Origin: Maribacter polysaccharolyticus | GTDB taxonomy: Bacteria > Bacteroidota > Bacteroidia > Flavobacteriales > Flavobacteriaceae | NCBI RefSeq assembly: GCF_028882255.1 | Contig: NZ_JARBUY010000001.1 | Coordinates: forward strand, 619,975-683,974 | Length of the DNA stretch: 64,000 bases | Reading direction: 5' to 3' | In this document: positions 17,379-60,209 of the stretch, piece by piece | How the letters are laid out: each line of letters starts with the position of its first letter | How positions within the stretch are numbered: the stretch's first letter is position 1 | Notes under the pieces: generated by a model | The model's input: the letters and a program-made list of their open reading frames with translations, nothing else | Database searches by the model: none | What the model was told of the DNA's origin: nothing | Program-made: the position numbers and the translations under genes

Positions 17379-19397
17379 CTAATCCAAAAAACTGTACTTT
17401 TCGGAATAATCCAACATCTGTTCCTCGAAAGTATCGGGTTGTACCACTTTTATATCGGTTATTTCCCCGGCTTCATTGGTCTGGGGAACCAATACGGGAT
17501 TAACGAATCCGCTATAAGGGGCCGATTTGAACTGCCGGTTACGATCTAAAACCTGTGCATGTAAGGCCTGATCCACCTTTACACCATACCCTTCAACCAA
17601 ATCTTGGGCCGCTTTAAAATCGCCCTCGGATTTTATACGTTGTGTTTCACGTAGCAGTTGCCCGAACAACCCACGAAGTTTTTCATAATCATTGATGTTA
17701 TAGTAGGTCTTACCGTCTTTTTCTATCCTTTCGATGACATTATCGGCTTTTCCTTTTTCATAGACCCAAGCAGAAACCCACTGCCTATTGACCATATGAT
17801 CTTCCTCGATATCGTTCCCTAATTCAATACGAACCAATTGGGTAATCAATCCATTTCGGATATAACCGTCATAGGCGGCTTTACCAACGGTTTCCCAATC
17901 GTCTACCAAACCTAATTCCTGTAATTTAGGGTCCATCAAATAATAGAGTCCGACCAAATCAGCCCTTCCCTCCTCCATGGTAGAAGCGTAATTTTTCAAT
18001 GTTTCCTTTGGTTGGCCGACCCCTGGGTTAATCAATCCGGATGCATGCCCAATAACCTCATGCAAAGCCGTATGCAATTTATCGGCCAACATTCCGTACT
18101 TTTCTTCCAAGGCTATTTCTTCCTCATCATAGGCAAATTCCTTTAATCGCCCGCTTCCTCCTGCATTATTATAGGCATCGATAATATTTCCTAAGGACAC
18201 CGATTTGCTGCCATGTTCCTGCCTGATCCAGTTGTTATTGGGTAAATTAACCCCGATGGGCGTACTCGGAGAAGCATCGCCTGCCTCCCCGGCAACATTG
18301 ATGGTTTTGTAGGATACCCCAACAACATCGCTTTTTTTATGGGCTTCCATTAATGGGGCGTTATCTTCGAACCATTGGGCATTCTCGGAAAGCACGGCCA
18401 TTTGCTTAGACATTTCAAAATCCTTTACCTGTATAATACTTTCATAAGAACCCCTATAACCCTTCGGATCATTGTACACCTCAATAAAACCGTTGATCCA
18501 ATCGATATTGCCATCGGTTGAAGTTGCCCATGAGATACAATACTCATCCCACGTATTCAAATCACCGGTCTTATAATAGTCGATTAGCAATCCCAAAGTT
18601 TTCGCCTGTTTTTCATTTTCGGCTACCCCTTTGGCTTTTTCCAACCATTTTATGACCTCATCGATCGCACTGCCATAAAGGCCGCCCGATTTCCATACCT
18701 TTTCAACCACCTTACCGTTTTCACGAACTAAGGTAGAGTTCAATCCGGCTTCAATAGGCCTGTCTTTAGGACCTTTGTATGCCGTTTTGTAAAAAGCATC
18801 CACATCGGCATCGGTTATGGTAGGTCCGTAAAAATTGATGGCCGAGGAAGCTACATTATCCACTCCCTTTTTCTTGTTGACCTTTTTTGCATCCTTATCA
18901 TTGAAGATTACCTCAAAGGCCTCACCTTCCAATTCCGTATCGGTCTCTTTCAGTAGATAGGTTAAAAAATCAGCCTTAAAGCCCGGCATTATCTTATCAT
19001 TGGAATAGTGATGGTGGATCCCATTGGAAAACCACACTCGTTTCAAATACTCTTCAAAAGCCAACCAGTCGCTTGTGGTCTTATCCCCTTCATAGGTTGT
19101 ATAAATATTTTCCAGGGCATCCCTGATTTCAAGATTATGCCGATAATTCTGGTCCCACATGATATCTCGACCGGCCAGACCGGCTTGCGTCATATAGTAC
19201 ACCAATTCTTTTTCCTTTAAGGTGAGTTCATCGAATCCCGGAATTTGGTAACGCAACACTTTGATATCCGCGAACTGATCGACGACGTATTCAAATTTTT
19301 CAGATACCTTTTCTACAGGTTTTTGGTCTATTTTTTCTTGGCAAGACCAAAGAAACCCAACGAAGAGAAGACCGATTAGGCTATTTTTTAATTTCAT
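17379..19397 (-). CDS. M49-family (dipeptidyl-peptidase III-like) lipoprotein
   Basis: Zinc peptidase of 672 residues related to dipeptidyl-peptidase III, which removes dipeptides from the N-terminus of oligopeptides. The zinc motif HEVIGH begins at residue 446, and the second motif EEGRADLVGLYYL lies about 40 residues later, matching HEXXGH and EE-x-R-A-(E/D) of M49. The start at 19397 gives a short lipoprotein signal (MKLKNSLIGLLFVGFLWSC); an upstream in-frame ATG at 19433 would only add a tail ahead of the signal. The lipobox implies a periplasmic or outer-membrane location, while classical DPP III is cytosolic. Some databases label such proteins dihydrofolate reductase by mistake. Confidence 0.85.
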   Translation of the reverse strand: MKLKNSLIGLLFVGFLWSCQEKIDQKPVEKVSEKFEYVVDQFADIKVLRYQIPGFDELTLKEKELVYYMTQAGLAGRDIMWDQNYRHNLEIRDALENIYTTYEGDKTTSDWLAFEEYLKRVWFSNGIHHHYSNDKIMPGFKADFLTYLLKETDTELEGEAFEVIFNDKDAKKVNKKKGVDNVASSAINFYGPTITDADVDAFYKTAYKGPKDRPIEAGLNSTLVRENGKVVEKVWKSGGLYGSAIDEVIKWLEKAKGVAENEKQAKTLGLLIDYYKTGDLNTWDEYCISWATSTDGNIDWINGFIEVYNDPKGYRGSYESIIQVKDFEMSKQMAVLSENAQWFEDNAPLMEAHKKSDVVGVSYKTINVAGEAGDASPSTPIGVNLPNNNWIRQEHGSKSVSLGNIIDAYNNAGGSGRLKEFAYDEEEIALEEKYGMLADKLHTALHEVIGHASGLINPGVGQPKETLKNYASTMEEGRADLVGLYYLMDPKLQELGLVDDWETVGKAAYDGYIRNGLITQLVRIELGNDIEEDHMVNRQWVSAWVYEKGKADNVIERIEKDGKTYYNINDYEKLRGLFGQLLRETQRIKSEGDFKAAQDLVEGYGVKVDQALHAQVLDRNRQFKSAPYSGFVNPVLVPQTNEAGEITDIKVVQPDTFEEQMLDYSEKYSFLD

Positions 19398-46382: not shown

Positions 46383-47138
46383 TTACTCCAACCACAACTT
46401 AAAGTCTTTTACCCGTTCCCTACTTACGATGATCTCTTGATCAATATAGCGATTTAATTTGATTTTCAAACGTGAATTGGTGTATGCGACAATGTCATTG
46501 ATATGGTTGATATTCACATAGTGTTTCCTACTTACCCTGAAGAAAATTTTGGGCTCCAATTCTACCTCAAGATTTTCCAATGTGGTATCCAATAAATAAT
46601 TCCTACCATCTGAAGTTGCTGCATAGGTACCTTTGTTCTCACTATAAAAACACTCCACCTCATCGGCATTGATGATCTTAAGGTGTTGCCCTACCTTGGC
46701 CGTAAACCTTTTTTTGTATTCCCGCTCCAAAGGGTTGACCAATAATTTTTTAATATCCTCAAAATCCAAGGTCATTTTTTGGGCATCGGGTTTAACGGCC
46801 TTGTATTTTTTTACGGCATTCTCCAACTCATCATCGTCAATGGGTTTTAGCAAATAATCGATACTATTCAATTTAAATGCCTGAAGTGCGTACTCGTCAT
46901 AGGCCGTTGTGAAAATTATCGCACTCTGCACATCGACGGCATCGAAGATCTCAAACGATAGTCCGTCCGAGAGTTGGATATCCAAAAAAATTAGGTCGGG
47001 ATGCGCATTGTTTTGAAACCAGGCTATCGCCTCTTCAACGGAATGGAGCATGGTGGATGCCTCCACATCCAATTGCGCCAATTGCCTACTCAGTCTTCTT
47101 GCGCTGGGTTTTTCGTCTTCTATGATGATTACGTTCAT
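46383..47138 (-). CDS. LytTR-type response regulator
   Basis: Response regulator of 251 residues: receiver domain (1-120) with acidic pocket IIIEDEKPSARRL, phospho-acceptor Asp53 in LIFLDIQLSDG and the FTTAYDEYALQAF switch segment; a linker; and a LytTR DNA-binding domain (about 150-251; FRVSRKHYVNINHINDIVAY, REIIVSRERVKDFKLWL-like end). It closes a run of minus-strand genes that also holds two 2TM proteins and the LytS kinase with a fused 2TM domain, so LytS is the likely partner. Confidence 0.93.
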   Translation of the reverse strand: MNVIIIEDEKPSARRLSRQLAQLDVEASTMLHSVEEAIAWFQNNAHPDLIFLDIQLSDGLSFEIFDAVDVQSAIIFTTAYDEYALQAFKLNSIDYLLKPIDDDELENAVKKYKAVKPDAQKMTLDFEDIKKLLVNPLEREYKKRFTAKVGQHLKIINADEVECFYSENKGTYAATSDGRNYLLDTTLENLEVELEPKIFFRVSRKHYVNINHINDIVAYTNSRLKIKLNRYIDQEIIVSRERVKDFKLWLE

Positions 47139-47202
47139 TCTATCGAGGTTGGGTTTTGAATATCAATTGTGGTTTTGGCTTGCAAAGAAGTTTATTTCGA
47201 TG

Positions 47203-47544
47203 CTACCTCCTATACTTTTCGGCTTCTTTCCTATCCTTTTCCATATACTTCTGGATCTGCTTTTTCTCCCACTCCTTCCCGAAAAAAGGATTGTATGAAA
47301 AAACCTTGGCTCCGTGGAAAAATAAACCAATGCCCCAGAAAATCCAAACCGCGAACGTCCCAAAGTCCCAAAATGCCTCGCCGAAGCTTTCCCCGTCCCC
47401 TAAATTCCGTACGATCTTCATGGTTGAAATAAACGTATTCACCAAAATATAAACCGTAAGGTGAATGTAAAACCCTTTAAGTTCTACTACGCGCTTTTTT
47501 GCCCGTCCGAATTTATCATTATCCATAGTATCCATTACTTCCAT
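47203..47544 (-). CDS. 2TM-domain protein (second of the pair)
   Basis: Small membrane protein of 113 residues with two hydrophobic helices (YIHLTVYILVNTFISTMKIV and FGTFAVWIFWGIGLFFHGAKVF) and the charged signature KVFSYNPFFGKEWEKKQIQKY. This is the 2TM family (a helix pair with a short linker), of unknown function. The start at 47544 overlaps the stop of the preceding 2TM gene by 10 bases, so the two are translationally linked. Its C-terminal tail is homologous to that of the neighbouring 2TM protein and of the LytS protein. Confidence 0.88.
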   Translation of the reverse strand: MEVMDTMDNDKFGRAKKRVVELKGFYIHLTVYILVNTFISTMKIVRNLGDGESFGEAFWDFGTFAVWIFWGIGLFFHGAKVFSYNPFFGKEWEKKQIQKYMEKDRKEAEKYRR

Positions 47545-47840
47545 CTTTTTTGTTGTTTTTCATCTTCTTGCATAAATTCCTTGATCTTACGCTCTTCCCA
47601 ATTACGCCCGAAAAGCGGATTTAAATCAAAAACCTTAAAGGCTTGGAACACCAATCCTATTCCCCATCCGAAGGCTGCCCAAAGAAACCATGGGTAACGC
47701 CACTGGTCGGTCCAATAATTGATAGCTGCTAAAAAGCATATGAAAAAAATATAGGATATTAGACTGGTATAGAACTTTTTAATCCCTTCTACCTTATCCT
47801 TTGCTCTAAAATATTTATTGTCTTTTTCCGTTGTTTCCAT
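47535..47840 (-). CDS. 2TM-domain protein (first of the pair)
   Basis: Membrane protein of 101 residues with the same layout as its neighbour: N-terminal charged helix (RAKDKVEGIKKFYTSLISYI), two membrane helices, then KVFDLNPLFGRNWEERKIKEF. The N-terminal amphipathic stretch matches that of the LytS-fused domain (YKKAKEHVEQLKGFYGNLLAY). First gene of a probable 2TM-2TM-lytTR operon, with its own promoter just upstream. Confidence 0.88.
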   Translation of the reverse strand: METTEKDNKYFRAKDKVEGIKKFYTSLISYIFFICFLAAINYWTDQWRYPWFLWAAFGWGIGLVFQAFKVFDLNPLFGRNWEERKIKEFMQEDEKQQKRWK

Positions 47841-47882
47841 AATGTTTTAAATTTGATTTGAATTGTCGTTTTATCTATGGTC

Positions 47883-47918
47883 CAAAAGTAAAATAGCTTT
47901 ATGCCCTTATAAAACAAA
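47883..47918 (-). promoter_or_regulatory. Promoter of the 2TM-2TM-LytTR operon
   Basis: On the minus strand: TTTG (complement of 47915-47918) and TACTTTTG (complement of 47883-47890), an exact TAnnTTTG match; spacing is 24 bases, one more than the usual range. It lies 43 bases before the start of the first 2TM gene. Confidence 0.5.
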
Positions 47919-47956
47919 CATCACCCAATTGTTGATTTTGTGGAATGGATCGTAGC

Positions 47957-49279
47957 TTAAAAGTCTTCGTCCTCCATGAACTCCCTCATTTTTCGTTCCT
48001 CCCAGGATTTTCCCCATAACGGATTATACCCAAAGACCTCCATCCCATGGACGGCCACTCCAAAACCCCAGCCAATGGCAGGGAATATGACCCACGGAAA
48101 AGCCGTTGTATTATAGTTAAGTATAGCCAAAAAGGGTATTACGATACAATAGGCGAGCAGATTGCCGTAAAACCCCTTGAGTTGTTCTACATGTTCCTTG
48201 GCCTTTTTATAGCGTTTATCATCAATATACGTTTGTTGTGTTTCCATTACTGTTACTTGTTTAGTCAACATGGGCAGCAATACCTTGAATTCGCTGGACG
48301 ATTTGGTAATTTCCACCTTTCTGTCTGTTAATATTCCGTAGCGTTGTTGAATATTGTACAACCCAACCCCGCTACGCTTCTTCACCACCTGCTTTTCCTG
48401 CAGGTTATTTTCCACCACGAGCATACCCGCTTTCTCATACACTTTGATATGCAATGGTTTTAAGGAGGTCACCACATTATGCTTTACCGCATTCTCAAGT
48501 AAAAGCTGAAGGGACAACGGTATGATTTTAGCCTCTGGGTTATTGCTGTGATTCGGGATTTCGAAATGAATGCTATCTTCAAAGCGCATCTTCAACAATT
48601 TTACATAGGTCTTGGCAAATTGGTACTCCTCATCCACAGAAACCAAATCCTTGTTCTTCTGTTCCAATACATAGCGATACACCTTGGAAAGGGATGTCGT
48701 GAATTTCTGGGCCTGTTTAGGGTCTTCCTCGATCAAACTGGTCAGAACGTTCAAACTATTGAAGAGGAAATGCGGGTCTAATTGGTTTTTGAGGGCATCG
48801 AACTTGGCCGAGGCCGTACCAGCAATGATTTTTTGCTCTTTGACCTTGTTCTCCTGCAGGGCCCTATAAAAATAAAAAGCATGGAAAAACAGGGAGATTA
48901 TCAATGCTATGCCCAAGGCCACGATATAATAGACCGCCTTCTCACCTTCGAAAAATTCGCCCAATGTTTTGCCGTAAAATACCACGGACAAGAGCAAACG
49001 CAAAAGGCCAAAAGCCAAAACCGTTAGGAATATCGATCCCAAGGCCCCGAACCATAGCCTTTTTTGGGCCTGTGCTTCCCAACTGAATTTTTTCGAGATA
49101 TAAGTGCTGAAATAGGCGTTGACCAACGTTAAGGTAAATGCGAATAAAAAATTGATCGCTCCATATTCCAACTGCTCGTTCCAGTCAAAGGGAACATTCC
49201 ATTTGATTATTCGGGTAACCACAACAATTGCCACCGTTATCAGGATGCTGATCTTCAATAATTTTAAAAACTCCTTCAT
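47957..49279 (-). CDS. LytS-type sensor histidine kinase with C-terminal 2TM domain
   Basis: Membrane histidine kinase of 440 residues. Four hydrophobic segments in the first ~145 residues form the membrane sensor; a coupling helix leads to the His_kinase domain (LDPHFLFNSLNVLTSLIEED, with the phospho-acceptor His in DPHFLFN) and the ATPase domain (PLSLQLLLENAVKHNV and GVGLYNIQQRYGIL). From about residue 355 a complete 2TM domain is fused (YKKAKEHVEQLKGFYGNLLA to VFGYNPLWGKSWEERKMREF), homologous to the two separate 2TM proteins downstream. The kinase sits upstream of the 2TM-2TM-LytTR operon on the same strand. Confidence 0.92.
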   Translation of the reverse strand: MKEFLKLLKISILITVAIVVVTRIIKWNVPFDWNEQLEYGAINFLFAFTLTLVNAYFSTYISKKFSWEAQAQKRLWFGALGSIFLTVLAFGLLRLLLSVVFYGKTLGEFFEGEKAVYYIVALGIALIISLFFHAFYFYRALQENKVKEQKIIAGTASAKFDALKNQLDPHFLFNSLNVLTSLIEEDPKQAQKFTTSLSKVYRYVLEQKNKDLVSVDEEYQFAKTYVKLLKMRFEDSIHFEIPNHSNNPEAKIIPLSLQLLLENAVKHNVVTSLKPLHIKVYEKAGMLVVENNLQEKQVVKKRSGVGLYNIQQRYGILTDRKVEITKSSSEFKVLLPMLTKQVTVMETQQTYIDDKRYKKAKEHVEQLKGFYGNLLAYCIVIPFLAILNYNTTAFPWVIFPAIGWGFGVAVHGMEVFGYNPLWGKSWEERKMREFMEDEDF

Positions 49280-51250: not shown

Positions 51251-51305
51251 GAATTCATTTGGGCTATGGACATGGACAACAAACCCATAGCCCAAATTCG
51301 AATTC
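51251..51305. repeat. Long inverted repeat between convergent genes
   Basis: ATTTGGGCTATGG (51257-51269) pairs perfectly with CCATAGCCCAAAT (51285-51297); GAATTC outside it (51251-51256) pairs with GAATTC at 51300-51305 after a two-base bulge. No T-run follows, so it is not a standard terminator, though it sits where one is expected between the helicase and LytTR genes. Confidence 0.7.
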
Positions 51306-51441
51306 CGTTTCATGGCTCCCCCAAACCATTATGGGTTAAAAGTAAGGGTTGTTCCGTATCAAAACTTTGAAAACAGGACGAAACCACGTTATAAGTGTCC
51401 TAAACGATACTTTAAATTACCCAAAGAAATGGATAACACCT

Positions 51442-52182
51442 TCAAATCTTCTGTATACGGTTCAGCAACGGCTCTCTATGCGATTTCCCCATAGGAATTA
51501 CCTTGCGGTTGATCTCTAAATGTCCTTCGGCCACCACATCGAGTTTCGCAATATTGACCATATAGGAACGATGGACCCTTAAAAATAAACTTGCAGGCAG
51601 CTTTTCTTCCATGGTTTTCAAAGTGGTGGTCAACAAATAGTGCTGGGACCCTGTGATGATCTTACAATAATTCCTATCGGCTTCAATGTAATGGATATCT
51701 GCCAATAGCAACTTGATCATTTTACCCATATGGCGTATAAAGATGCGATCATCCAAAACTTTCAACGTGGGATTATCCGCAGTTTGACCGCCCGATTTCA
51801 ATTTGATCTGTTGAACGGCCAATTCAAATGTACGTTGTAACTGTATAATATTCAGTGGTTTGGATATAAATGCAAAAGGGTGCGTTTCCTTGGCCCTATT
51901 GAACGTGGCCTCATCGGTATTGGCAGTTAGGTAAATTATGGGGATATGCATAATGGTATGTATCTGTTTGGCCGTTTCGATACCATCGAGCTTCCCTTTT
52001 AAATTAATGTCCATAAGGATTATATCCGGACGATTTTCCCGAGCATGAACAAGGGCCTCCTCTCCCCTTGTCTCAATTCCCGTAACCTCATAATCAAGAT
52101 TGGTCAATTGTAAACTTATGTTGGCCGCAATGATCATATCATCCTCAACGACCAAAACCTTTGTTTTATCTACCATGTTCAT
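51442..52182 (-). CDS. LytTR-type response regulator paired with TPR kinase
   Basis: Response regulator of 246 residues: receiver (VLVVEDDMIIAANISLQL; phospho-acceptor Asp58 in IILMDINLKGKLDGIE; IPIIYLTANTDEATFNRA; late Lys in FISKPLNI) and LytTR DNA-binding domain (about 145-246; HYIEADRNYCKIITGSQHYL, FLRVHRSYMVNIAKLDVV). Its start codon overlaps the stop of the upstream kinase gene in an ATGA, the usual sign of translational coupling, which also fixes the start. Target genes are unknown; the divergent operon beginning at 54353 is the nearest candidate. Confidence 0.93.
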   Translation of the reverse strand: MNMVDKTKVLVVEDDMIIAANISLQLTNLDYEVTGIETRGEEALVHARENRPDIILMDINLKGKLDGIETAKQIHTIMHIPIIYLTANTDEATFNRAKETHPFAFISKPLNIIQLQRTFELAVQQIKLKSGGQTADNPTLKVLDDRIFIRHMGKMIKLLLADIHYIEADRNYCKIITGSQHYLLTTTLKTMEEKLPASLFLRVHRSYMVNIAKLDVVAEGHLEINRKVIPMGKSHREPLLNRIQKI

Positions 52183-54158
52183 GCCGCTTTGTTATATTCA
52201 AACTCAAAAGAAACCATTGTCCCTTTTTCAACCTTCAATTGCATTTTACCGTCTAACTGCCTCGTCAGGAGTTTGACCAATTTGGTCCCAAACCCTGTTC
52301 CCTCAATCGCACCCCTTTTACAAAACCCTATACCGTTGTCCCCAACCATTAAGGACAATACGGGGCCTGATTTTTTCAATCTGATGGTAATCGTTCCCTT
52401 TGCCCCATTGGGGAACGCATATTTCATCGAATTGGTCAATAGTTCATTGACGATAAGACCGATAGGTATGGCGGTATCCAAATCAAGCTCGATTTCCTCC
52501 ATGTCCAAAAATATCCCGATCCTCTTTTGGGAATCGAATACATTGATGATATAATTCGATAAATTCGAGAAATAGGATTTCATTTCAATGCATGACAAAC
52601 TTTTTTCCTGATACAATTTTTGATGTACCATACTCATACTTTGGATTCTATGTCGGCAATTTTGCATGGCCTCCACAATTTTTTCATCATTGATTTCCGC
52701 CGACTGCAGGGCCAATAGGCTTGAAACGATTTCGAGATTGTTCTTTACCCTATGATGTATCTCCTTCAATAAAAATTCTTTCTCCTCATTTTGCTTTTGG
52801 AGCATGCTGTTCTTTTTATTGTTGTTCTTTAAAGACTTATATAACAGTATTAAATAAAGTACCAATAAAATGACAATGGTGATGATCAAGCTCTGCAGTA
52901 TCTGTTGTTTCGTGATACGGGTTTGCTGTAATTGAATGGTGTTCTCTTTTTGGGCCACGTCGTATTCCGTCCTTAGCTGTGATATTCGATGGTCGGCCTC
53001 AGCCGTAAATATCTTGTCCTTTAGATTATCATATACCGCAAAGGCCTGATAGGCCTCTTGGTAATTAAAGTTGCCTGCATAAGCCTTACCTAAAGCTTCG
53101 TAGGCCTGACTCAAATAATATTCGTCGCCAAAATCATCGGAAGCAATGGCTATACATTTTTTCAGACTTTCTATGGCGGAAGTATATTTTCCTTGAATAT
53201 TCTGCAATTTCCCTATAGACAACCACGATCGCATCAACATAAAGTCATTATCCAATAATTCGGCATATTTCACGGCATTTTCACCCGCTTCAACAGCCTT
53301 TTCGAAATTATTCAAGTAAGTGTAAAGATCCACCTTGGAAATATATACGTCGCTAAGGTTATTGTAAAACCCATACCGCTCCCCTATGGCTATGGCGCGG
53401 TTAAAATAATTCAGGGCCAGCTTATAGGCTTTCAAACTCATATAATTGTTTCCCACAAGGTAAAGGGTAAAGTCGTAATCCAAGTCATTGATCCCCCTTT
53501 CCTCAAATAGGGCAACGGATTTAAGACTGTATTCCAAACCCGATTTAAATTTGGACTGCTTCCAAAATAAATTACTTAAATCGCTATAGGCCATAGCTAT
53601 GGCCTTTTTGTCGTTAAGTTCTTCCCCGATTTCCAAAGCTATCAAGGCAAAATCGGCAGCCCGGTCCAATTCCCCCTTTCTTTCGTATACATATCCCATT
53701 TGCGTATATAACATGGGCAGGTCGCTCTTAATTACGTTTTCCTTGGCTTGCGATAAGACGGTCAACGCACTGTCCAATTCCTCCATTCTCAACAAAACGG
53801 CTCCTTGGGTAATTCGAAATCTTCCTTCCCACAAGCTGTTCTGCGCTTCAGAGGTCAGTCGCAATCCCTCTAGGGTAAATTGCATGGAGCGCTTTAAATT
53901 TCGCGTATGCCAATAATAGGCCAGGTCATTGAGCATGGAAAACTTAAGGGTGTCGGGTTGGGCCAAGGGATATGACCCTTCCAACACATCCAAATAAGAA
54001 GCCCCAAAATTATCCGTTGCCACAAATACCTTTGTATACGGATCTTCACGTTCAAAATCGATAATTTGGGATATACCGAAATACCCCATAAATAGAAAAA
54101 TGGTAAGGGGCAAAACAGTAAGGGGTAAGTCTGTTCTCATTTCTCTATAATTTTTCAT
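52179..54158 (-). CDS. TPR-containing sensor histidine kinase (HisKA_2 type)
   Basis: Sensor kinase of 659 residues. A first hydrophobic segment (LPLTVLPLTIFLFMGYFGIS) exports the sensor part, which consists of TPR repeats over about residues 70-400 (e.g. LYTQMGYVYERKGELDRAAD, ALNYFNRAIAIGERYG, YYLSQAYEALGKAYAG). A second membrane helix (LQSLIITIVILLVLYLILLY, near 420) leads to a HisKA_2 dimerisation box with HHRVKNN at about 468 and a C-terminal ATPase domain (IPIGLIVNELLTNSMKYAF, VGDNGIGF, GTGFGTKLVKLLTRQL). TPR sensors of this kind are common in Bacteroidota. Coupled to the LytTR regulator. Confidence 0.92.
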   Translation of the reverse strand: MKNYREMRTDLPLTVLPLTIFLFMGYFGISQIIDFEREDPYTKVFVATDNFGASYLDVLEGSYPLAQPDTLKFSMLNDLAYYWHTRNLKRSMQFTLEGLRLTSEAQNSLWEGRFRITQGAVLLRMEELDSALTVLSQAKENVIKSDLPMLYTQMGYVYERKGELDRAADFALIALEIGEELNDKKAIAMAYSDLSNLFWKQSKFKSGLEYSLKSVALFEERGINDLDYDFTLYLVGNNYMSLKAYKLALNYFNRAIAIGERYGFYNNLSDVYISKVDLYTYLNNFEKAVEAGENAVKYAELLDNDFMLMRSWLSIGKLQNIQGKYTSAIESLKKCIAIASDDFGDEYYLSQAYEALGKAYAGNFNYQEAYQAFAVYDNLKDKIFTAEADHRISQLRTEYDVAQKENTIQLQQTRITKQQILQSLIITIVILLVLYLILLYKSLKNNNKKNSMLQKQNEEKEFLLKEIHHRVKNNLEIVSSLLALQSAEINDEKIVEAMQNCRHRIQSMSMVHQKLYQEKSLSCIEMKSYFSNLSNYIINVFDSQKRIGIFLDMEEIELDLDTAIPIGLIVNELLTNSMKYAFPNGAKGTITIRLKKSGPVLSLMVGDNGIGFCKRGAIEGTGFGTKLVKLLTRQLDGKMQLKVEKGTMVSFEFEYNKAA

Positions 54159-54352
54159 CGGGGGAAATGAGTATTTCTAAATATACAAAATTTTGGATAG
54201 GAATTGTTCGATAACAAAAAATGGACCTTCGGACAATAATTGCTTCCATTCATCCCCAATGATTTTTTAAGTAAGATCATTATCACTTCTTTTAGTACTC
54301 ACAATGCAACATTTGTGGTGCCAATTGGCCAACCCCACTAAAATCGAGGATC

Positions 54353-54871
54353 ATGGGAAGAAAGGGAATAGTTTGGATCATTATCGTTTTCTTATCCCTC
54401 AACTGTAAAAAGAATTTGAAAAGTGACGGGTCAAATGATCTTGAACAAACCCTTGCAAAGAATTTCAATACTTATATCACCCACGCATGGAACCAAAAAA
54501 ACATGGATAGCCTAAGAACAATATCGGTTCAAAACTGCAGTCGCCAGCTCAATGGGATAAAGATCGCGGAAAATCTTAATGAACTGGAGGCCAATTTGAA
54601 TATCTATTTTATCGGTTTTCCCGATTTGAAAATCTCCATAGACCATAGCGCGATCAAAAACAACCAATTGTTTGCCCTGTGGACATTTGAAGGGACCAAT
54701 ACAGGCACCTTTGCGGAATCCGACGCTACTGGCAAACACATCACCGTTAGCGGGTATACCGAAATAACCTTCGACCAAATGGGCAAAATTGCCATCGAAA
54801 GAACCTTTTACAATGAACTGGCCTTATTACAACAGTTGGGCTATGCGTTGGTACCTCCCGTCGTTGAGTAA
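54353..54871 (+). CDS. SnoaL-like (NTF2-fold) lipoprotein
   Basis: Exported protein of 172 residues with a short signal ending in VFLSLNC. The SnoaL/ester-cyclase-like domain spans about 40-165: NAWN-type start (YITHAWNQKNMDSLRTIS), the FIGFPDLKISIDHSAIKNNQ strand pair, WTFEGTNTGTFAES and ALLQQLGYAL at the end. SnoaL-family proteins include polyketide cyclases, but many members are non-enzymatic or uncharacterised. The closing half is homologous to the second domain of the lipoprotein at 56574. First gene of a co-directional run, divergent from the sensor kinase. Confidence 0.8.
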   Translation: MGRKGIVWIIIVFLSLNCKKNLKSDGSNDLEQTLAKNFNTYITHAWNQKNMDSLRTISVQNCSRQLNGIKIAENLNELEANLNIYFIGFPDLKISIDHSAIKNNQLFALWTFEGTNTGTFAESDATGKHITVSGYTEITFDQMGKIAIERTFYNELALLQQLGYALVPPVVE

Positions 54872-54948
54872 ACCAACCCTTAGCTAAACCTGAAAGATAA
54901 TTTAAATACATCAGTAACACCAAAAGTATTAATCTAAATAGGCATAAA

Positions 54949-55713
54949 ATGAAAACACAAACTTCAATATTTCCAAATTTATTGGTCATGTTCTTATTCA
55001 TGGGCTTCCTTAACGCCCAAAACGAAAGTTCCCAAGCATTTTGGGTGCATGAGGACGTTGTAAAACCTTCCATGATAGGCCAATACGAAGCTACCTGTAA
55101 AGAGCTTACCGACAATATGAAAAAATACAATATCCAAGATTTCAATGTTATCGTAAGCAATACGATCGACAATAGGTACCAATGGTTAAGTCCTATAGAC
55201 AATATGGCGGATATCGATAAACCGATATTCAAAACATTGGCCGAAAAGATGGGAGAGGATACAATGGGCGCTCTTTTCGATAGGATGGATAAATGCTATG
55301 ATATTGAACAAAATTTTGTCTTACATCTCGACAAGGAGCTCTCCTATATGCCCGGGGGCATCACCCAAACAATTGAAGGACAAAATTATAGGAAACTACA
55401 TTACTTTCATTACACCCCCGGGAATAGGGCGGCGGTAAAAAAGAAAGTCCAAGCCATCAAGAACCTTTTTGAAAGTAAAGGTTCAAAGCTACACTACCGG
55501 GTCTACCGCAGTGGTTTTGGGACTAGGGGCGAATTTTATCTGGTGGCCATTGCCGCTGAAAGTGCCGGGGATTATGCGCACAAGATCACGGAGAATAATA
55601 AAATGATGGGGGAAGAATGGGTTAGTACCTATAACGACTTTATATCGAGTTTGGAGAAGTATGAAGCCATTGAAGCTCGAATGCGACCCGATATGGGTTA
55701 TTCCCCACAGTAA
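54949..55713 (+). CDS. Exported protein of unknown function, paralogue A (dimeric-barrel-like)
   Basis: A 254-residue protein with signal peptide (ends near FLNAQNES). Two halves each start with an aromatic/His strand (FWVHEDVVKPSMIGQYEATC and LHYFHYTPGNRAAVKKKVQA) and end in a strand with a helix (for example FYLVAIAAESAGDYAHKI), which suggests two ferredoxin-like (ABM/NIPSNAP-type) repeats. Conserved with the next gene: HEDxVKPSMI, YMPxGI, EGQNYRK, KGSK, GFGTxG. No catalytic residues can be named. Function unknown. Confidence 0.8.
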   Translation: MKTQTSIFPNLLVMFLFMGFLNAQNESSQAFWVHEDVVKPSMIGQYEATCKELTDNMKKYNIQDFNVIVSNTIDNRYQWLSPIDNMADIDKPIFKTLAEKMGEDTMGALFDRMDKCYDIEQNFVLHLDKELSYMPGGITQTIEGQNYRKLHYFHYTPGNRAAVKKKVQAIKNLFESKGSKLHYRVYRSGFGTRGEFYLVAIAAESAGDYAHKITENNKMMGEEWVSTYNDFISSLEKYEAIEARMRPDMGYSPQ

Positions 55714-55753
55714 TACCATGCCATCATACAATAACCTCAATACATAGAAAATC

Positions 55754-56518
55754 ATGAGAACACTTAAATTAACGATTTTGAGCATTGCGATGCTCACATT
55801 GATTCCGTATACAAGCTTTGCCCAAGAAAATGAAAACCAGCTCTTTTATGTTCATGAAGACCGAGTGAAACCTTCGATGATCGAAAAATATGAGCAAATT
55901 TCCAAAGAATTCAAGGAAGCATGTATTGAACATAACCTTCAAGGGCTTAGTTGGCAGGTAGCCGCTACAGCAACAGGACGGTATATGATTATTTCCCCTA
56001 TGGAGAATATGGCCGAACTTGACAAGAACGTCATGGCGCCTTTAGCTGAAAAAATGGGAGATGAGGCATTTAATAAAATGTTTATGCGCTTTAATGAATG
56101 TTACGATAAACATGGGGACTATACGGTGTACCTCAACAAGGAACTAACCTATATGCCAGAGGGCATTAGCACTATTACCGAAGGTCAAAACTATAGAAAA
56201 TGGCATTTTTTACATGTAACACCTGAAAATATCCAAAACCTTAAGACAAAACTCAAAGAGCTAAAAGCCTTATTTGAACGGAAAGGATCCAAGGAATACT
56301 ACCGTATCTACCACAATGGATTTGGAACTATGGGCGATTACTATATTGCCGTTTTATCGGCCATTGACGAAGAGGACTATGCTAAAAAATCAAAAGCGAA
56401 CCAAGTCTTGTTAGGGGAAGAAGGGAAAAAGCTTTTTGACGAAGTCTTCCAGTATGTCTATAAATATGAAGTTGAATCGGGGGGCATGCACCCAGATTTA
56501 AGCTATACCCCCAATTGA
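55754..56518 (+). CDS. Exported protein of unknown function, paralogue B (dimeric-barrel-like)
   Basis: Also exactly 254 residues and clearly a tandem duplicate of the preceding gene, with which it shares HEDRVKPSMI, YMPEGI, EGQNYRKWHF, FERKGSKEYYRIYHNGFGTM and the final DLSYTP. Signal peptide MRTLKLTILSIAMLTLIPYTSFAQ. The start 40 bases after the first gene's stop implies one transcript. The copies differ throughout, so this is an old duplication. Function unknown. Confidence 0.8.
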   Translation: MRTLKLTILSIAMLTLIPYTSFAQENENQLFYVHEDRVKPSMIEKYEQISKEFKEACIEHNLQGLSWQVAATATGRYMIISPMENMAELDKNVMAPLAEKMGDEAFNKMFMRFNECYDKHGDYTVYLNKELTYMPEGISTITEGQNYRKWHFLHVTPENIQNLKTKLKELKALFERKGSKEYYRIYHNGFGTMGDYYIAVLSAIDEEDYAKKSKANQVLLGEEGKKLFDEVFQYVYKYEVESGGMHPDLSYTPN

Positions 56519-56573
56519 TATCTGCCTTACAAAATTTTAAAGGAATTCTAATATCTTTTAAATCAATGCAATC

Positions 56574-57488
56574 ATGAAAAAATCAAGTATACTAATATTC
56601 ACGGCAATTCTGTTGATGGGTTGCCAGCAAAAAGCTGCTGAGCGATATACCCAGCAATCACCGCAAATCGACACGGTCAAGAAATTACTGGCCAATTACA
56701 CCGGTAAAACCTACGATACCAGCATGTATGCAGATACGGCCAAGACCTATTACAATTCCATAGGGAACCCCATGTCCCCTGCCGAGACCATCGCATATCA
56801 CCAACAAAATGATGCCAATTATTCGTCTAGGGGTTTTCTTGAAGAAGACCAGGAATATGAAATGGCAATCACCGATGATGGGAAAACCTGGGTAAACGCT
56901 TGGTTGCATTGGAAAGGCACCTTGGCCGGAAACGGTCAGGTAGTGGATATCCCGATCCACCTGACCTATCAATTCATAGATGGGAAAATCGTTCGGGAGT
57001 ATGGCTATTGGGACCCCACCGAAGTAGTGCTTGCCCTTCAAAAAATGGAAGCTGAAAAAAGCATGTCGGTCGAAGAAAAGACCGTTCAATCGACCGTGGA
57101 CAATATAACAAAGGCTTGGAATGCAAATGACAAGGCCTTGATGGCCTCTCATATGACTTCCGATTTCATCAGGACCGAAAATGGCAATATCATAGCCAAA
57201 AATCCGCAGGAATATGCTGGGTTCATGGACATCTATTTTGAAGCATTTCCCGACTTTACCGTAAAAATCGATAAAAGTTCGGTGCAGGGCAACAAGGCCT
57301 ATATATATTGGACCTGTACTGGTACCAATACCGGTAAATTCATGGATAACGACCCTACCGATAAAAAAATAATGACCCATGGTTTCAGCGTTTGGACACT
57401 CGACCGGGACGGCAAATGTGAAAGGGAAGATGCTTTTTACGACAAGATGGTCCTTCTCGAACAATTGGGCATGGCACCTTCGATTTAA
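56574..57488 (+). CDS. Double SnoaL-like lipoprotein
   Basis: Exported lipoprotein of 304 residues (ILLMGCQQK lipobox) with two NTF2/SnoaL-fold domains: about 35-160 (YYNSIGNPMSPAETIAYHQQ, WVNAWLHWKGTLAGNG, VREYGYWDPTEVV) and about 172-300 (DNITKAWNANDKALMASHMT, EAFPDFTVKIDKSSVQGNKA, CTGTNTGKFM, DAFYDKMVLLEQLG). The second domain is a close relative of the protein at 54353. Two fused NTF2 domains may form an internal pseudo-dimer. Ligand unknown. Confidence 0.8.
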   Translation: MKKSSILIFTAILLMGCQQKAAERYTQQSPQIDTVKKLLANYTGKTYDTSMYADTAKTYYNSIGNPMSPAETIAYHQQNDANYSSRGFLEEDQEYEMAITDDGKTWVNAWLHWKGTLAGNGQVVDIPIHLTYQFIDGKIVREYGYWDPTEVVLALQKMEAEKSMSVEEKTVQSTVDNITKAWNANDKALMASHMTSDFIRTENGNIIAKNPQEYAGFMDIYFEAFPDFTVKIDKSSVQGNKAYIYWTCTGTNTGKFMDNDPTDKKIMTHGFSVWTLDRDGKCEREDAFYDKMVLLEQLGMAPSI

Positions 57489-57514
57489 ACCCATCCCCAA
57501 TCAACATATTCACT

Positions 57515-58399
57515 ATGAAAAAAATTCTTATTACCGGTTGCAGTTCGGGATTTGGCTATAATTCCGCCAAATATTTAGCCGAAAAAGGGCATCATGTATT
57601 TGCCTCAATGCGAAATACAGCCCATAAAAACAAAAAGGCCGCCTCCGAATTACGTGATTTTGCGACTTCCAAAGATTTAAAGATAGAGGTACTTGATATG
57701 GACGTTACCTCCGATGATAGCGTAGCTAAGGCAGTTTCCAAAGTCCCTCGAGTAGATGTTCTGATCAACAATGCCGGGCGCGGTTTTGGAGGGCCCTTAG
57801 AGGCCTTCTCCTCACAGGAGTGTATGGCGCAACTTGACCTGAACATCCTGGGCCCCTTTAGGGTAGCCAAAGCGGTACTTCCGAAAATGCGTGCCCAAAA
57901 ATCGGGATTGATCATTCAGGTCAGTTCCATTGCCGGCCGGTGTGCGGTGCCGGGTTTCGGTATTTACCATGCCAGCAAATGGGGCCTGGAAGGCCTGAGT
58001 GAATCCTTGCGCTATGAACTGGCCCCATTGGGCATCGATGTGGTCGTGGTAGAACCGGGGCCGTTTGCCACCAACTTTTTCCCTGCCCTAGTCCCTGCCG
58101 AAAACATAGCGGTCGCTTCGGCCTATAAACATGTGTCGGAATTCAGTGATAATTTCGGTAGTCAGACCCATGCCGCTTTTGAGGATGAAAATGCACCTAC
58201 CGATCCCATGGTGGTGGTAAAGATCTTTGAAAAACTCATCGATACCCCAATGGGCAATCGCCCACTTCGTACCCTGGCGGGGATGGACTTTGGAATCCAA
58301 GACCTTAACAATGCCGTTGAACCGATCAGAAAACGGATTCTTGAATCGTTTGATCTGGCCGATTGTGACGGGCCAAAGGCAAAAATCAAAGCAATATAA
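57515..58399 (+). CDS. Short-chain dehydrogenase/reductase
   Basis: Cytoplasmic NAD(P)-dependent oxidoreductase of 294 residues. Motifs: ILITGCSSGFGYNSAKYL (TGxxxGxG), LINNAGRGFGGP, IQVSSIAGRC (Ser) and YHASK (Tyr and Lys of the catalytic triad), followed by VVVEPGPFATNF. The Rossmann start with Cys/Ser after TG and no acidic residue at the end of beta-2 hints at NADPH, but this is not firm. The substrate is unknown. Embedded in the operon between the double SnoaL lipoprotein and the cupin (12 bases to the next gene). Confidence 0.92.
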   Translation: MKKILITGCSSGFGYNSAKYLAEKGHHVFASMRNTAHKNKKAASELRDFATSKDLKIEVLDMDVTSDDSVAKAVSKVPRVDVLINNAGRGFGGPLEAFSSQECMAQLDLNILGPFRVAKAVLPKMRAQKSGLIIQVSSIAGRCAVPGFGIYHASKWGLEGLSESLRYELAPLGIDVVVVEPGPFATNFFPALVPAENIAVASAYKHVSEFSDNFGSQTHAAFEDENAPTDPMVVVKIFEKLIDTPMGNRPLRTLAGMDFGIQDLNNAVEPIRKRILESFDLADCDGPKAKIKAI

Positions 58400-58411
58400 A
58401 AAACCCATCTT

Positions 58412-58867
58412 ATGAAAAGCCTCCAAGCATACTTCTTATTGGGATCGTTGCTTTTTATAGGTCTGGGCGGACTTTTTGGTCAAGACAACCCCAAAGGACC
58501 ACCCATTTTATATAAAAGTGGTGACCCTGCCGATTGGCCATTGGACCAAGACGCCGTGATATCCGCACCGAACAATCATAAAATCCTTTTGGAAAATGAC
58601 ATGGTTCGGGTTTTGGAGGTGACCTTATCACCTAATGAACTGGAGCCCCTACACCACCACCAGTGGCCCAGTGTGCTCTATATTATGGAAGCCGGGGATT
58701 TTATAGATCGTGATGGGAATGGAAATATCATTTTGGACACCCGACAATTGCCATCGCCTTTGACATTTCCCTTGACCATGTGGAAAGATCCCGAGGCCCC
58801 CCATTCCGTTCAAAATTTAAGCCAAACAAAACCGATCCGACTCATACGGGTCGAGATGAAACCATAA
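58412..58867 (+). CDS. Exported cupin-domain protein
   Basis: A 151-residue single-cupin protein with a signal peptide (MKSLQAYFLLGSLLFIGLGG, cleaved near LFGQD). The cupin motif 1 appears as LSPNELEPLHHHQWPSVLYI, with a HHH run that can supply metal ligands; motif 2 (PEAPHSVQNLSQTKPIRLI) gives the last His. Cupins range from dioxygenases to binding proteins. Export is unusual for a small stand-alone cupin and matches the other exported proteins of this operon. Confidence 0.85.
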   Translation: MKSLQAYFLLGSLLFIGLGGLFGQDNPKGPPILYKSGDPADWPLDQDAVISAPNNHKILLENDMVRVLEVTLSPNELEPLHHHQWPSVLYIMEAGDFIDRDGNGNIILDTRQLPSPLTFPLTMWKDPEAPHSVQNLSQTKPIRLIRVEMKP

Positions 58868-58878
58868 AAACCAAATAA

Positions 58879-59388
58879 ATGACAACAACAAAGTACATCC
58901 TTACGGGAATTGCCTTAAGCGCTTCAATTGCTTTCTCTAGCTGTAAAGAACAGACCCAAGTGGAAACAACCGAACAAACCGAAACCGTAGTTGAAAACGA
59001 AACACCCGAATATTTCCTGCTACGTCCTGAAGTGGAGAAGGCCTATGGCTATTCGCACGCCGTAAAAATCGGTAACGAAATAAAAATTTCCGGCGCCGTA
59101 AGTATGGACGATGAAGGAAATGCCACCGCAATAGGGGATATTGAACAGCAAATGATAAACTGCTACTCCGATTTGGAGAAAGTCCTCAACCACTACGGAT
59201 GCACCTTCGATGATGTTGTGGTAGAAAATGTCTTCACCACCGATATGGCAAAATTCCTTGAAGTCGCCGCCTACCGGGGTGAAATTTACAAAAATCAATT
59301 TCCCACAGGGTCTTGGCTTGGCGTCAAGGAACTGGCACTACCCGAATTTTTAATCGAGATAGAATTGGAAGTTTATTCATCTAAATAA
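58879..59388 (+). CDS. Exported RidA-family protein lacking the catalytic arginine
   Basis: A 169-residue RidA/YjgF/YER057c-family protein behind a lipoprotein-like signal (IALSASIAFSSC) and a Thr/Glu-rich linker. The RidA fold is clear from HAVKIGNEIKISGAVSMDDE, NHYGCTFDDVVVENVF and the C-terminal FLIEIELEVY. In enamine/imine deaminases the segment before the last strands reads P-A-R-S; here it is FPTGSWLGVKEL, so the Arg that binds the substrate carboxylate is replaced by Gly. It is probably not a classical deaminase. Eleven bases after the cupin gene. Confidence 0.85.
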   Translation: MTTTKYILTGIALSASIAFSSCKEQTQVETTEQTETVVENETPEYFLLRPEVEKAYGYSHAVKIGNEIKISGAVSMDDEGNATAIGDIEQQMINCYSDLEKVLNHYGCTFDDVVVENVFTTDMAKFLEVAAYRGEIYKNQFPTGSWLGVKELALPEFLIEIELEVYSSK

Positions 59389-59398
59389 AACAAACATC

Positions 59399-59704
59399 AT
59401 GATCAAGCTAACAGTACTTTATGGACATCCCACCGACATTCAGGCATTTGAAAAGTATTATTCGGACACCCATTTGCCCAAGGCGGCCAAAATGAAAGGC
59501 CATACCAAGCTTGAACTCACAAAATTACTGAGTTCACCCGATGGCAGTAAACCTGAGTTCTACCGCATGGCCGAATTTTGGTTTTCCAGTCCCGAAGCGA
59601 TGCAGACCACCATGGAATCGCCCGAAGGGCAGGCAACCGCTGCCGACCTTGCCAATTTTGCCACCGGCGGGGCCAAGGTAATGGTAGGGGCCATTGAAAA
59701 GTAA
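59399..59704 (+). CDS. EthD-family protein
   Basis: Cytoplasmic 101-residue dimeric alpha/beta-barrel protein. MIKLTVLYGHPTDIQAFEKY at the start and YRMAEFWFSSPEAMQTTMES with a C-terminal FATGGAKVMVGAIE match EthD, first seen in ether degradation and also in polyketide cyclases and stress proteins. No signal peptide. Starts 10 bases after the RidA gene, so it is in the same transcript. Confidence 0.88.
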   Translation: MIKLTVLYGHPTDIQAFEKYYSDTHLPKAAKMKGHTKLELTKLLSSPDGSKPEFYRMAEFWFSSPEAMQTTMESPEGQATAADLANFATGGAKVMVGAIEK

Positions 59705-59873
59705 TTCAACCTGGACAACGGTCCATGCAACTTACGAAAAAGCAAACAGCCATGAAAATATGACCTTGCTGTTATTGATAATAGCAACACCTATTACGGT
59801 CCCCATGGCTGTAGAAGTCCAGGCTTTTAACATTCATACCATAAACATCCGGAATCTTAAATACAATTTCACT

Positions 59874-60209
59874 ATGAAAACTACAAAAAAACATTGGAAG
59901 AAAACTGAACTACAGATCTATGTGCTGTTGCTCTGTGCAAATGCAGATTCAATGGAAACCGATGAAGAAATAAATTTAATAAAATCAAAAACCGATCCTG
60001 ACACCTTCAATAAAATGTACAAGGAGTTCATTAGCGATACGTTGGATGAAAGCCTGGAAAAAATCCAACAGAATATATACAAGCACTATTACTCCCACAT
60101 GGAGCTTATCGAGTTTCGAAAAGAGGTCAATGCGGTTTTCCTTTCAGATAAAAAAATCCATCAGATGGAGCGTAACCTTGATCGGATATTGGATAATATT
60201 ATCTATTAA
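59874..60209 (+). CDS. Hypothetical helical protein, TerB-like
   Basis: A 111-residue acidic and helical protein: TELQIYVLLLCANADSMETD and EEINLIKSKTDPDTFNKMYK resemble the calcium/acid-rich TerB-like fold. The ATG at 59874 fits the usual start of this group; a longer frame from 59694 overlaps the EthD stop and contains a hydrophobic stretch with no relative I know. It lies 169 bases downstream of the EthD gene, so its membership in the operon is uncertain. Function unknown. Confidence 0.65.
   Translation: MKTTKKHWKKTELQIYVLLLCANADSMETDEEINLIKSKTDPDTFNKMYKEFISDTLDESLEKIQQNIYKHYYSHMELIEFRKEVNAVFLSDKKIHQMERNLDRILDNIIY

Follow-up and report, generated by a model that had tools for sequence, protein, structure and literature searches.

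In a stretch of the Maribacter polysaccharolyticus genome (contig NZ_JARBUY010000001.1, positions 619,975 to 683,974; these 64,000 nucleotides are hereafter called the window, and all coordinates count from its first letter), the genes of a two-component system diverge from a close run of eight plus-strand genes that begins with those of a SnoaL-like lipoprotein and two exported 254-residue proteins, B1 and B2. The arrangement raises the question of whether the regulator controls the run, and what a set of mostly exported proteins would do under such control. The reading favoured here, to which we assign a probability of roughly 0.6 from sequence comparison, is a LytTR-controlled envelope regulon acting on a small molecule, perhaps an aromatic or quinone-like one.

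The two divergent genes have the composition of a LytTR two-component system, as a response regulator with receiver (REC) and LytTR domains (minus strand, 51442-52182; Pfam Response_reg 1.8e-20, LytTR 2e-17) adjoins a TPR sensor histidine kinase with HisKA_2 and HATPase domains (minus strand, 52179-54158; Pfam HisKA_2 6.6e-25). A check of the open reading frames (ORFs) of the window shows that the two overlap by 4 bp. The TPR part of the kinase is flanked by N-terminal and central hydrophobic segments; this topology, like the export signals and lipoboxes described below, was read from the sequence by eye.

The core of the locus is widespread. With B2 as query, the B family was found in 92 of 299 sampled Flavobacteriaceae genomes, about a third, and 38 of these genomes (40 stretches), the best-scoring together with some weaker ones, were taken for neighbourhood comparison. 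From a public genome collection the best 80 of 174 relatives were kept as further loci, mostly from Flavobacteriaceae, and the genera among the kept loci include Maribacter, Arenibacter, Kriegella, Salegentibacter, Christiangramia/Gramella, Muriicola, Eudoraea and Algibacter. The resulting 120 loci were reduced to 109 nonredundant ones by removal of identical B proteins; gene calls were mechanical and the loci come from related genomes, which inflates the counts. A SnoaL-like gene lies on the same strand within two genes of B in 96 of the 109 loci, an association beyond chance. The regulator (at least 200 phmmer bits to that of the window) is encoded within four genes of B in 59 loci, and a related TPR kinase is nearby in 54 of these. 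The worry that the gene order could be unique to this strain is thus removed for the core of kinase, regulator, SnoaL, 254-residue and further SnoaL-like genes, which recurs, but not for the exact order of all eight genes, which is seen in no other of the 109 loci; in the congeneric locus L065 the order is SnoaL, B1, double SnoaL, cupin, Rid, EthD and then short-chain dehydrogenase (SDR). The tail genes are variable accordingly (SDR in 8 loci, cupin in 7, Rid in 19 and EthD in 2, with one further EthD-like ORF seen in L105 outside this gene-table count), and other neighbours include an O-methyltransferase cluster (19 loci), an epimerase/3-beta-HSD-like cluster (29) and three exported families, namely a second ~254-residue (22), a ~260-residue (23) and a 145-residue one (12).

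Between kinase and operon lies a box of the form TTCGGACA-N13-TTCGTCC, a direct repeat with a 21-bp period that has a third half-site upstream. By motif comparison, the plus-strand half-sites of the window (54207-54255) are TTCGATAA from 54207, TTCGGACA at 54228-54235 and TTCATCC at 54249-54255, and the box itself, at 54228-54255, has one mismatch. Among 42 kinase-operon intergenic regions, some of them redundant, two were too short, and 37 of the other 40 scored 11-15 out of 15 with a spacing of exactly 13, each beating the best of its own 30 shuffles; since the shuffles over all regions reached 12, the five scores of 11-12 are weak when taken singly. The low scores of L049, L065 and L074 are due to over-long ORF starts, a whole-locus scan placing the box there at 0-2 mismatches. 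Over all 120 loci the box outnumbers its reversed pattern by 58 to 0 at up to one mismatch and by 79 to 7 at up to two.

The box also goes together with the regulator. When one rule with the same thresholds was applied to all 109 nonredundant loci, counting boxes near the module genes, the 59 loci with the regulator had the box in 55 cases at up to two mismatches and in all 59 at up to three (reversed pattern, 0 and 1), compared with 1 and 5 of the 50 loci without it (reversed pattern, 0 and 1). The five exceptions are L128, where the regulator is cut at the contig end, and L111, L112, L116 and L120, which are Christiangramia-type loci with a diverged regulator. Loci of this type (regulator phmmer 148-175) were counted as having no regulator, and the best boxes in the 11 of them that were inspected have 3-6 mismatches, individually at or near chance level. 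Christiangramia-type regulators such as those of L096, L106 and L116 retain the LytTR domain, but their receiver domain is degenerate and their box has diverged. Algibacter, Flaviramulus and their relatives (several of L126-L151) have a regulator-free SnoaL-B pair, flanked by RsmD-like methylase and DNA polymerase III gamma/tau-like genes (names assigned by eye); no box at up to two mismatches was found in the loci of this type. One contig labelled Deltaproteobacteria (L127) bears a flavobacterial-type locus and is possibly misbinned.

Downstream of the box, elements of a promoter can be recognised. When 53 operon-side loci are aligned on the box, TT(G) stands at +36 to +38 (91, 92 and 58%) and T-t-n-n-TT-a-G at +59 to +66 (T 92%, TT 98 and 100%, G 62%), and by this spacing the plus-strand elements of the window (54264-54294) are the TTG position at 54264-54266, here TTT, and a TTnnTTaG-like element from 54287. 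They resemble a Bacteroidetes-type promoter, TTG / TAnnTTTG, a motif that has appeared in published work. A generic scan for sigma-70 promoters and terminators gave near-chance counts (34 vs 32.4 and 21 vs 16.2) and was dropped. In a published account, LytTR sites consist of 9-bp repeats mostly 12 bp apart (11-13) and typically 10 bp before the -35 element (PMC6193735), which is matched by the 21-bp period of the box and its gap of about 8 bp to the first element; the half-site TTCGTCC likewise resembles the AlgR consensus CCGTTCGTC, as given in another (PMC4064291). Taken together, the promoter geometry and the LytTR-like spacing make activation of transcription towards SnoaL-B the most likely role of the box, with possible control of the kinase gene as well, and we regard it as very probable that the SnoaL-B operon is controlled by this regulator.

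Next, the products of the operon are mainly directed to the envelope. The operon encodes the SnoaL-like lipoprotein (54353-54871), B1 (54949-55713), B2 (55754-56518), a double SnoaL-like lipoprotein (56574-57488), an SDR (57515-58399), an exported cupin-like protein (58412-58867), a Rid-family lipoprotein with a Ribonuc_L-PSP match (58879-59388) and an EthD-family protein (59399-59704). A preliminary description of the locus had given intergenic gaps of 77, 40, 55, 26, 12, 11 and 10 bp and export signals in six of the eight proteins, and these, as well as all ORF positions, were reproduced: lipoboxes are seen in the SnoaL-like, double SnoaL-like and Rid proteins, signal peptides in B1, B2 and the cupin-like protein, and neither in the SDR and EthD proteins. 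Its family assignments stood for the TPR kinase and the LytTR, SnoaL, SDR, Rid and EthD proteins, but the cupin match is marginal and falls below the Pfam cut-off (E 0.12). The SnoaL-like (PF07366) matches, of 60.7 and 77.2 bits, are well over the cut-off of 28.4, and these lipoproteins also match SnoL in the PDB by sequence (8r2b, E 4.7e-6). The EthD protein (TIGR02118) reaches 96.1 bits against a cut-off of 30.5, the sole informative name from an NCBIfam scan of the locus proteins.

For the B proteins, which are 40% identical to each other, no Pfam or NCBIfam match above cut-off was found; their sequences have only marginal PDB matches (4dpo, E 0.013), and the Pfam ABM family (PF03992) is matched by one of 25 B members, at E 0.035 and below the gathering score. 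The AlphaFold2 model of B2 has a mean predicted local distance difference test score (pLDDT) of 91.9 and shows two successive sets of strands and helices in ferredoxin-like order. Foldseek matches it to the dimeric alpha/beta barrel fold (E 5.5e-11), and the highest fold Z-scores (VIA) are to the anthrone-oxidase-like 5f9p (14.9), sulfur oxygenase reductase (14.9) and PenE (14.4), followed by lower-ranked chlorite dismutase/coproheme decarboxylase folds; WhiE-ORFI is also among the related folds, and identities to the closest folds are 7-14%. B2 is thus confidently predicted to be a tandem dimeric alpha/beta barrel of the anthrone-oxidase/PenE/sulfur-oxygenase-reductase fold that has no Pfam family. 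H34, D36, Y117, Y133, R148, R184 and Y186 are each kept in at least 96.9% of 128 aligned B members, and as H34/D36 and R184/Y186 lie two apart on strands, both residues of a pair should point the same way, plausibly into the barrel. An unmasked profile comparison related B to the second ~254-residue (probability 93.5), 145-residue (85.9) and ~260-residue (60.0) families, but with the first 28 residues masked the best probability was 13.4, and one common sequence family is therefore not claimed. The model of the ~260-residue family has a pLDDT of 57.9, so that its matches to chlorite dismutase/coproheme decarboxylase folds are weak.

Finally, the box appears to reach beyond the operon. In 14 nonredundant loci (L049, L065, L075-L085, L140) it stands, beyond the regulator, in front of the gene of the exported ~260-residue family. 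Whole-genome matches at up to one mismatch, summed by hand over 19 genomes with the regulator beside B and the window's own, number 55 for the box and 12 for the control; 19 of the former are module boxes, which leaves 36 distal matches against 12. All distal matches were read in six genomes, namely the window's own, with one plausible distal site, those of the congeners G032 and G258, and G025, G253 and G037, chosen for their many matches. Of the 36 distal matches in these six (real matches only), 32 are followed within about 200 bp by an ORF on the same strand. The first genes encode six SnoaL/NTF2-like proteins (three by Pfam and three by profile only, one of the latter weak), four SDR/NmrA-like reductases (two by Pfam, two by eye), an O-methyltransferase, a FAD-linked BBE oxidoreductase, a member of the second ~254-residue family, a weak ~260-residue relative, two 234-residue exported proteins, five lectin-like proteins whose genes stand ahead of those of TPR proteins (RicinB and TPR plus class III cyclase in the one typed pair), lipoproteins, of which one was typed NHL/SGL and another has an allene-oxide-cyclase-like match below threshold, and a few singletons. 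A sulfotransferase is also among the enzymes encoded by box-bearing genes, and another boxed lectin-like protein had no Pfam match. In L214 (typed) and L220 (by similarity) a boxed SnoaL gene is followed by one for EthD, and at another place in genome G025 an exact box stands before the gene of an SDR that has 64% identity to that of the window, which supports the tail genes of the window belonging to the regulon. Among 19 further hand-picked boxes in other genomes, 11 precede genes of the SnoaL-like, second ~254-residue or ~260-residue families, two of these in the module-like locus L244, and two of the 19 lie inside ORFs. The boxes in L206, L211, L234 and L235, in L250 and at C16:82174 of the window's own genome were taken as chance, being inside ORFs or having no close downstream gene, and that of L239 is ambiguous. 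On contig C11 of the window's own genome (L172:3493-6259) a box stands before a ricin-B lectin gene and that of a TPR/class III cyclase protein; boxed lectin-like/TPR pairs occur in other genomes too, and several of the lectin-like proteins end in a DPKIKV-like motif.

The window also holds a second LytTR-type box, TTAGGACA-N13-TTCGTCC with one mismatch (minus strand, 51376-51403), which pattern match and congener comparison mark as an orphan: its leader remains, but the gene of the exported ~260-residue protein, found behind this box in relatives, is missing. The alignment to the congener L173 (16884-19141) runs through box and leader to 17075, where the ~260-residue gene begins, and resumes at 19043 in the helicase gene, about 2 kb being missing in the window. 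As the gene is present at the same place in several relatives, a deletion of about 2 kb in this strain is the simpler reading. The leader (51265-51300) keeps an inverted repeat, TTTGGGCTATGG...CCATAGCCCAAA, in common with L173. Upstream of the helicase gene, at 46383-49279, there is a second LytTR regulator with a 2TM-domain histidine kinase, and the small ORFs between the two resemble the 2TM part of that kinase. At the other end of the locus, the last ORF (plus strand, 59694-60209) has a TTG start, and the ATG at 59874, 169 bp past the EthD gene, is the more likely one; the 111-residue protein so defined (59874-60209) was assigned no family, and its membership of the module is doubtful; it is also found near the module in 3 of 109 loci.

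Several observations weigh against the reading as a small-molecule regulon. The loci belong to related genomes and are not independent, and the box was derived from those loci themselves. Two genomes, G253 and G258, hold 17 of the 36 distal matches, and with both removed 19 stand against 11 in the control, so that some genomes clearly have a wide regulon, while others have little or none of it. A barrel fold does not show function, as barrel proteins also act as non-catalytic binders, and the exported families have no significant sequence homology once their signal peptides are masked. The accessory enzymes vary, and no single pathway can be read from the gene list. Distal boxes also precede genes for lectin-like/TPR pairs, 1888-2005-residue proteins, a peptidase/esterase and lipoproteins, which implies either that the regulon is wider than small-molecule chemistry or that several LytTR paralogues share the motif.

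In the latter case the boxed genes would form separate regulons that answer to different signals, as the second LytTR pair of the window (46383-49279) and the boxed lectin-like/TPR pairs, one of them, with the TPR-cyclase, in the window's own genome, would allow; 19 genomes with B that lack this regulator beside it nevertheless have no excess of boxes (10 matches vs 18 in the control), and shared use of the motif by paralogues appears an unlikely, if serious, alternative. Similarly unlikely is a role in auxiliary sensing, in which the exported SnoaL-like and barrel proteins bind ligands without catalysis, either feeding the TPR kinase or buffering a signal, a form of surveillance with no pathway behind it. 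SnoaL and barrel folds can act as mere binders, and TPR domains as a rule bind proteins; lectin-like and TPR proteins behind distal boxes fit such a role, and so does the Rid-like lipoprotein. In RidA imine deaminases the Arg of the P-x-R loop is conserved, whereas the protein of the window has Gly (FPTGSWLGV) opposite the Arg of 3k0t, as do 17 of 19 relatives (one has Arg and one did not show the loop), and it is therefore probably not an imine deaminase. Against a purely sensory role, however, the boxed genes include clear enzymes (SDR, O-methyltransferase, FAD-linked BBE oxidoreductase, sulfotransferase), and polar residues are nearly invariant in B.

Less probable still is that the genes are a dispersed tailoring set finishing a secreted specialised metabolite made elsewhere in the cell. 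SnoaL proteins, ABM-type barrels, EthD, O-methyltransferases, BBE enzymes and SDRs all occur as tailoring families, and family matches to them were found, with PenE and WhiE-ORFI among the related folds; but none of the 20 proteins typed in the 44-63 kb part of the window is a polyketide or peptide synthase, an exported location is odd for tailoring, and the variable gene set suggests no single product. That the box merely autoregulates the kinase/regulator pair, with the operon a bystander, is very improbable, for although its distance to the kinase start is near-constant (76-90 bp in most loci tested, 69 in the window), the promoter-like elements point at the operon, the box also precedes ~260-residue, SnoaL, SDR and other genes away from the kinase, and in the Salegentibacter loci it stands between B and a regulator that is transcribed towards B.

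The LytTR-controlled envelope regulon therefore remains the favoured reading, and from it we infer a scheme of binding, activation, catalysis and substrate. The TPR sensor region of the kinase, probably outside the cytoplasmic membrane, would perceive an envelope signal, and the kinase would phosphorylate the REC-LytTR regulator, which would bind the three tandem half-sites with their 21-bp period and activate the promoter directly downstream. From the operon, the periplasm or outer membrane would then receive tandem barrel proteins and lipoproteins of the SnoaL-like (NTF2-fold) kind, accompanied by accessory enzymes that vary between strains (SDR, EthD, cupin and Rid-like proteins; elsewhere O-methyltransferase), and in some related genomes the same box elsewhere may switch on more proteins of the same kinds. 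Most likely, these proteins would bind a small molecule that the cell meets at its surface and convert it by oxidation, cyclisation, reduction or methylation; the families SnoaL, ABM-type barrel, EthD, SDR, O-methyltransferase and BBE point to small aromatic or polyketide-like molecules. The preliminary description had proposed that sensor and operon form an envelope pathway directed at a reactive small molecule: the regulator-operon link is upheld by recurrent divergence, direct repeats and promoter-like elements, and the envelope-directed products with small-molecule-enzyme folds by export signals, family matches and the B2 model, whereas the reactive small molecule as target stays conjectural. 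More tentatively, the Flavobacteriaceae could have a regulon dedicated to extracytoplasmic chemistry, in which the LytTR system, through one three-half-site box used at the core locus and at scattered sites, would switch on secreted tandem-barrel enzymes of no described family, SnoaL-like lipoproteins and cytosolic finishing enzymes that trap and convert reactive, perhaps algal aromatic, compounds outside the cell.

No published description of the module was found among the matches listed in the open-licence literature, and the data suggest a coordinated and apparently undescribed response of marine Flavobacteriaceae to some small molecule at the envelope. Genes so far labelled "hypothetical" and "SnoaL-like" become a regulon open to testing, for which a regulator, a DNA site and a predicted fold can be named; further members may be sought with the box, and a reporter built on it could screen for the signal, and thereby for the substrate class. 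Should the exported barrels prove to be enzymes, common marine degraders would be carrying out oxygenase-type chemistry beyond their cytoplasm.

Among known systems, the lipoproteins share PF07366 and PDB matches (SnoL, 8r2b) with the SnoaL/SnoL polyketide cyclases and hydroxylases, but differ from them in being lipoproteins with single and double domains and in having no polyketide cluster nearby (44-63 kb). B2 is predicted to share the two ferredoxin-like domains per chain with 5f9p, PenE, SnoaB and other ABM-type barrels, whereas it is 9-14% identical to 5f9p and PenE, exported and without a Pfam family; a tandem barrel fold is also common to B2, sulfur oxygenase reductase and chlorite dismutase/coproheme decarboxylase, at 7-13% identity. 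Finally, with LytTR systems such as AlgR, AgrA and HdrRM the locus has in common the LytTR domain and, as judged from sequence, direct repeats with a period of about 21 bp a few bp before a promoter, while a TPR kinase partner of the HisKA_2 type, a third half-site and exported barrel and SnoaL-like targets set it apart.

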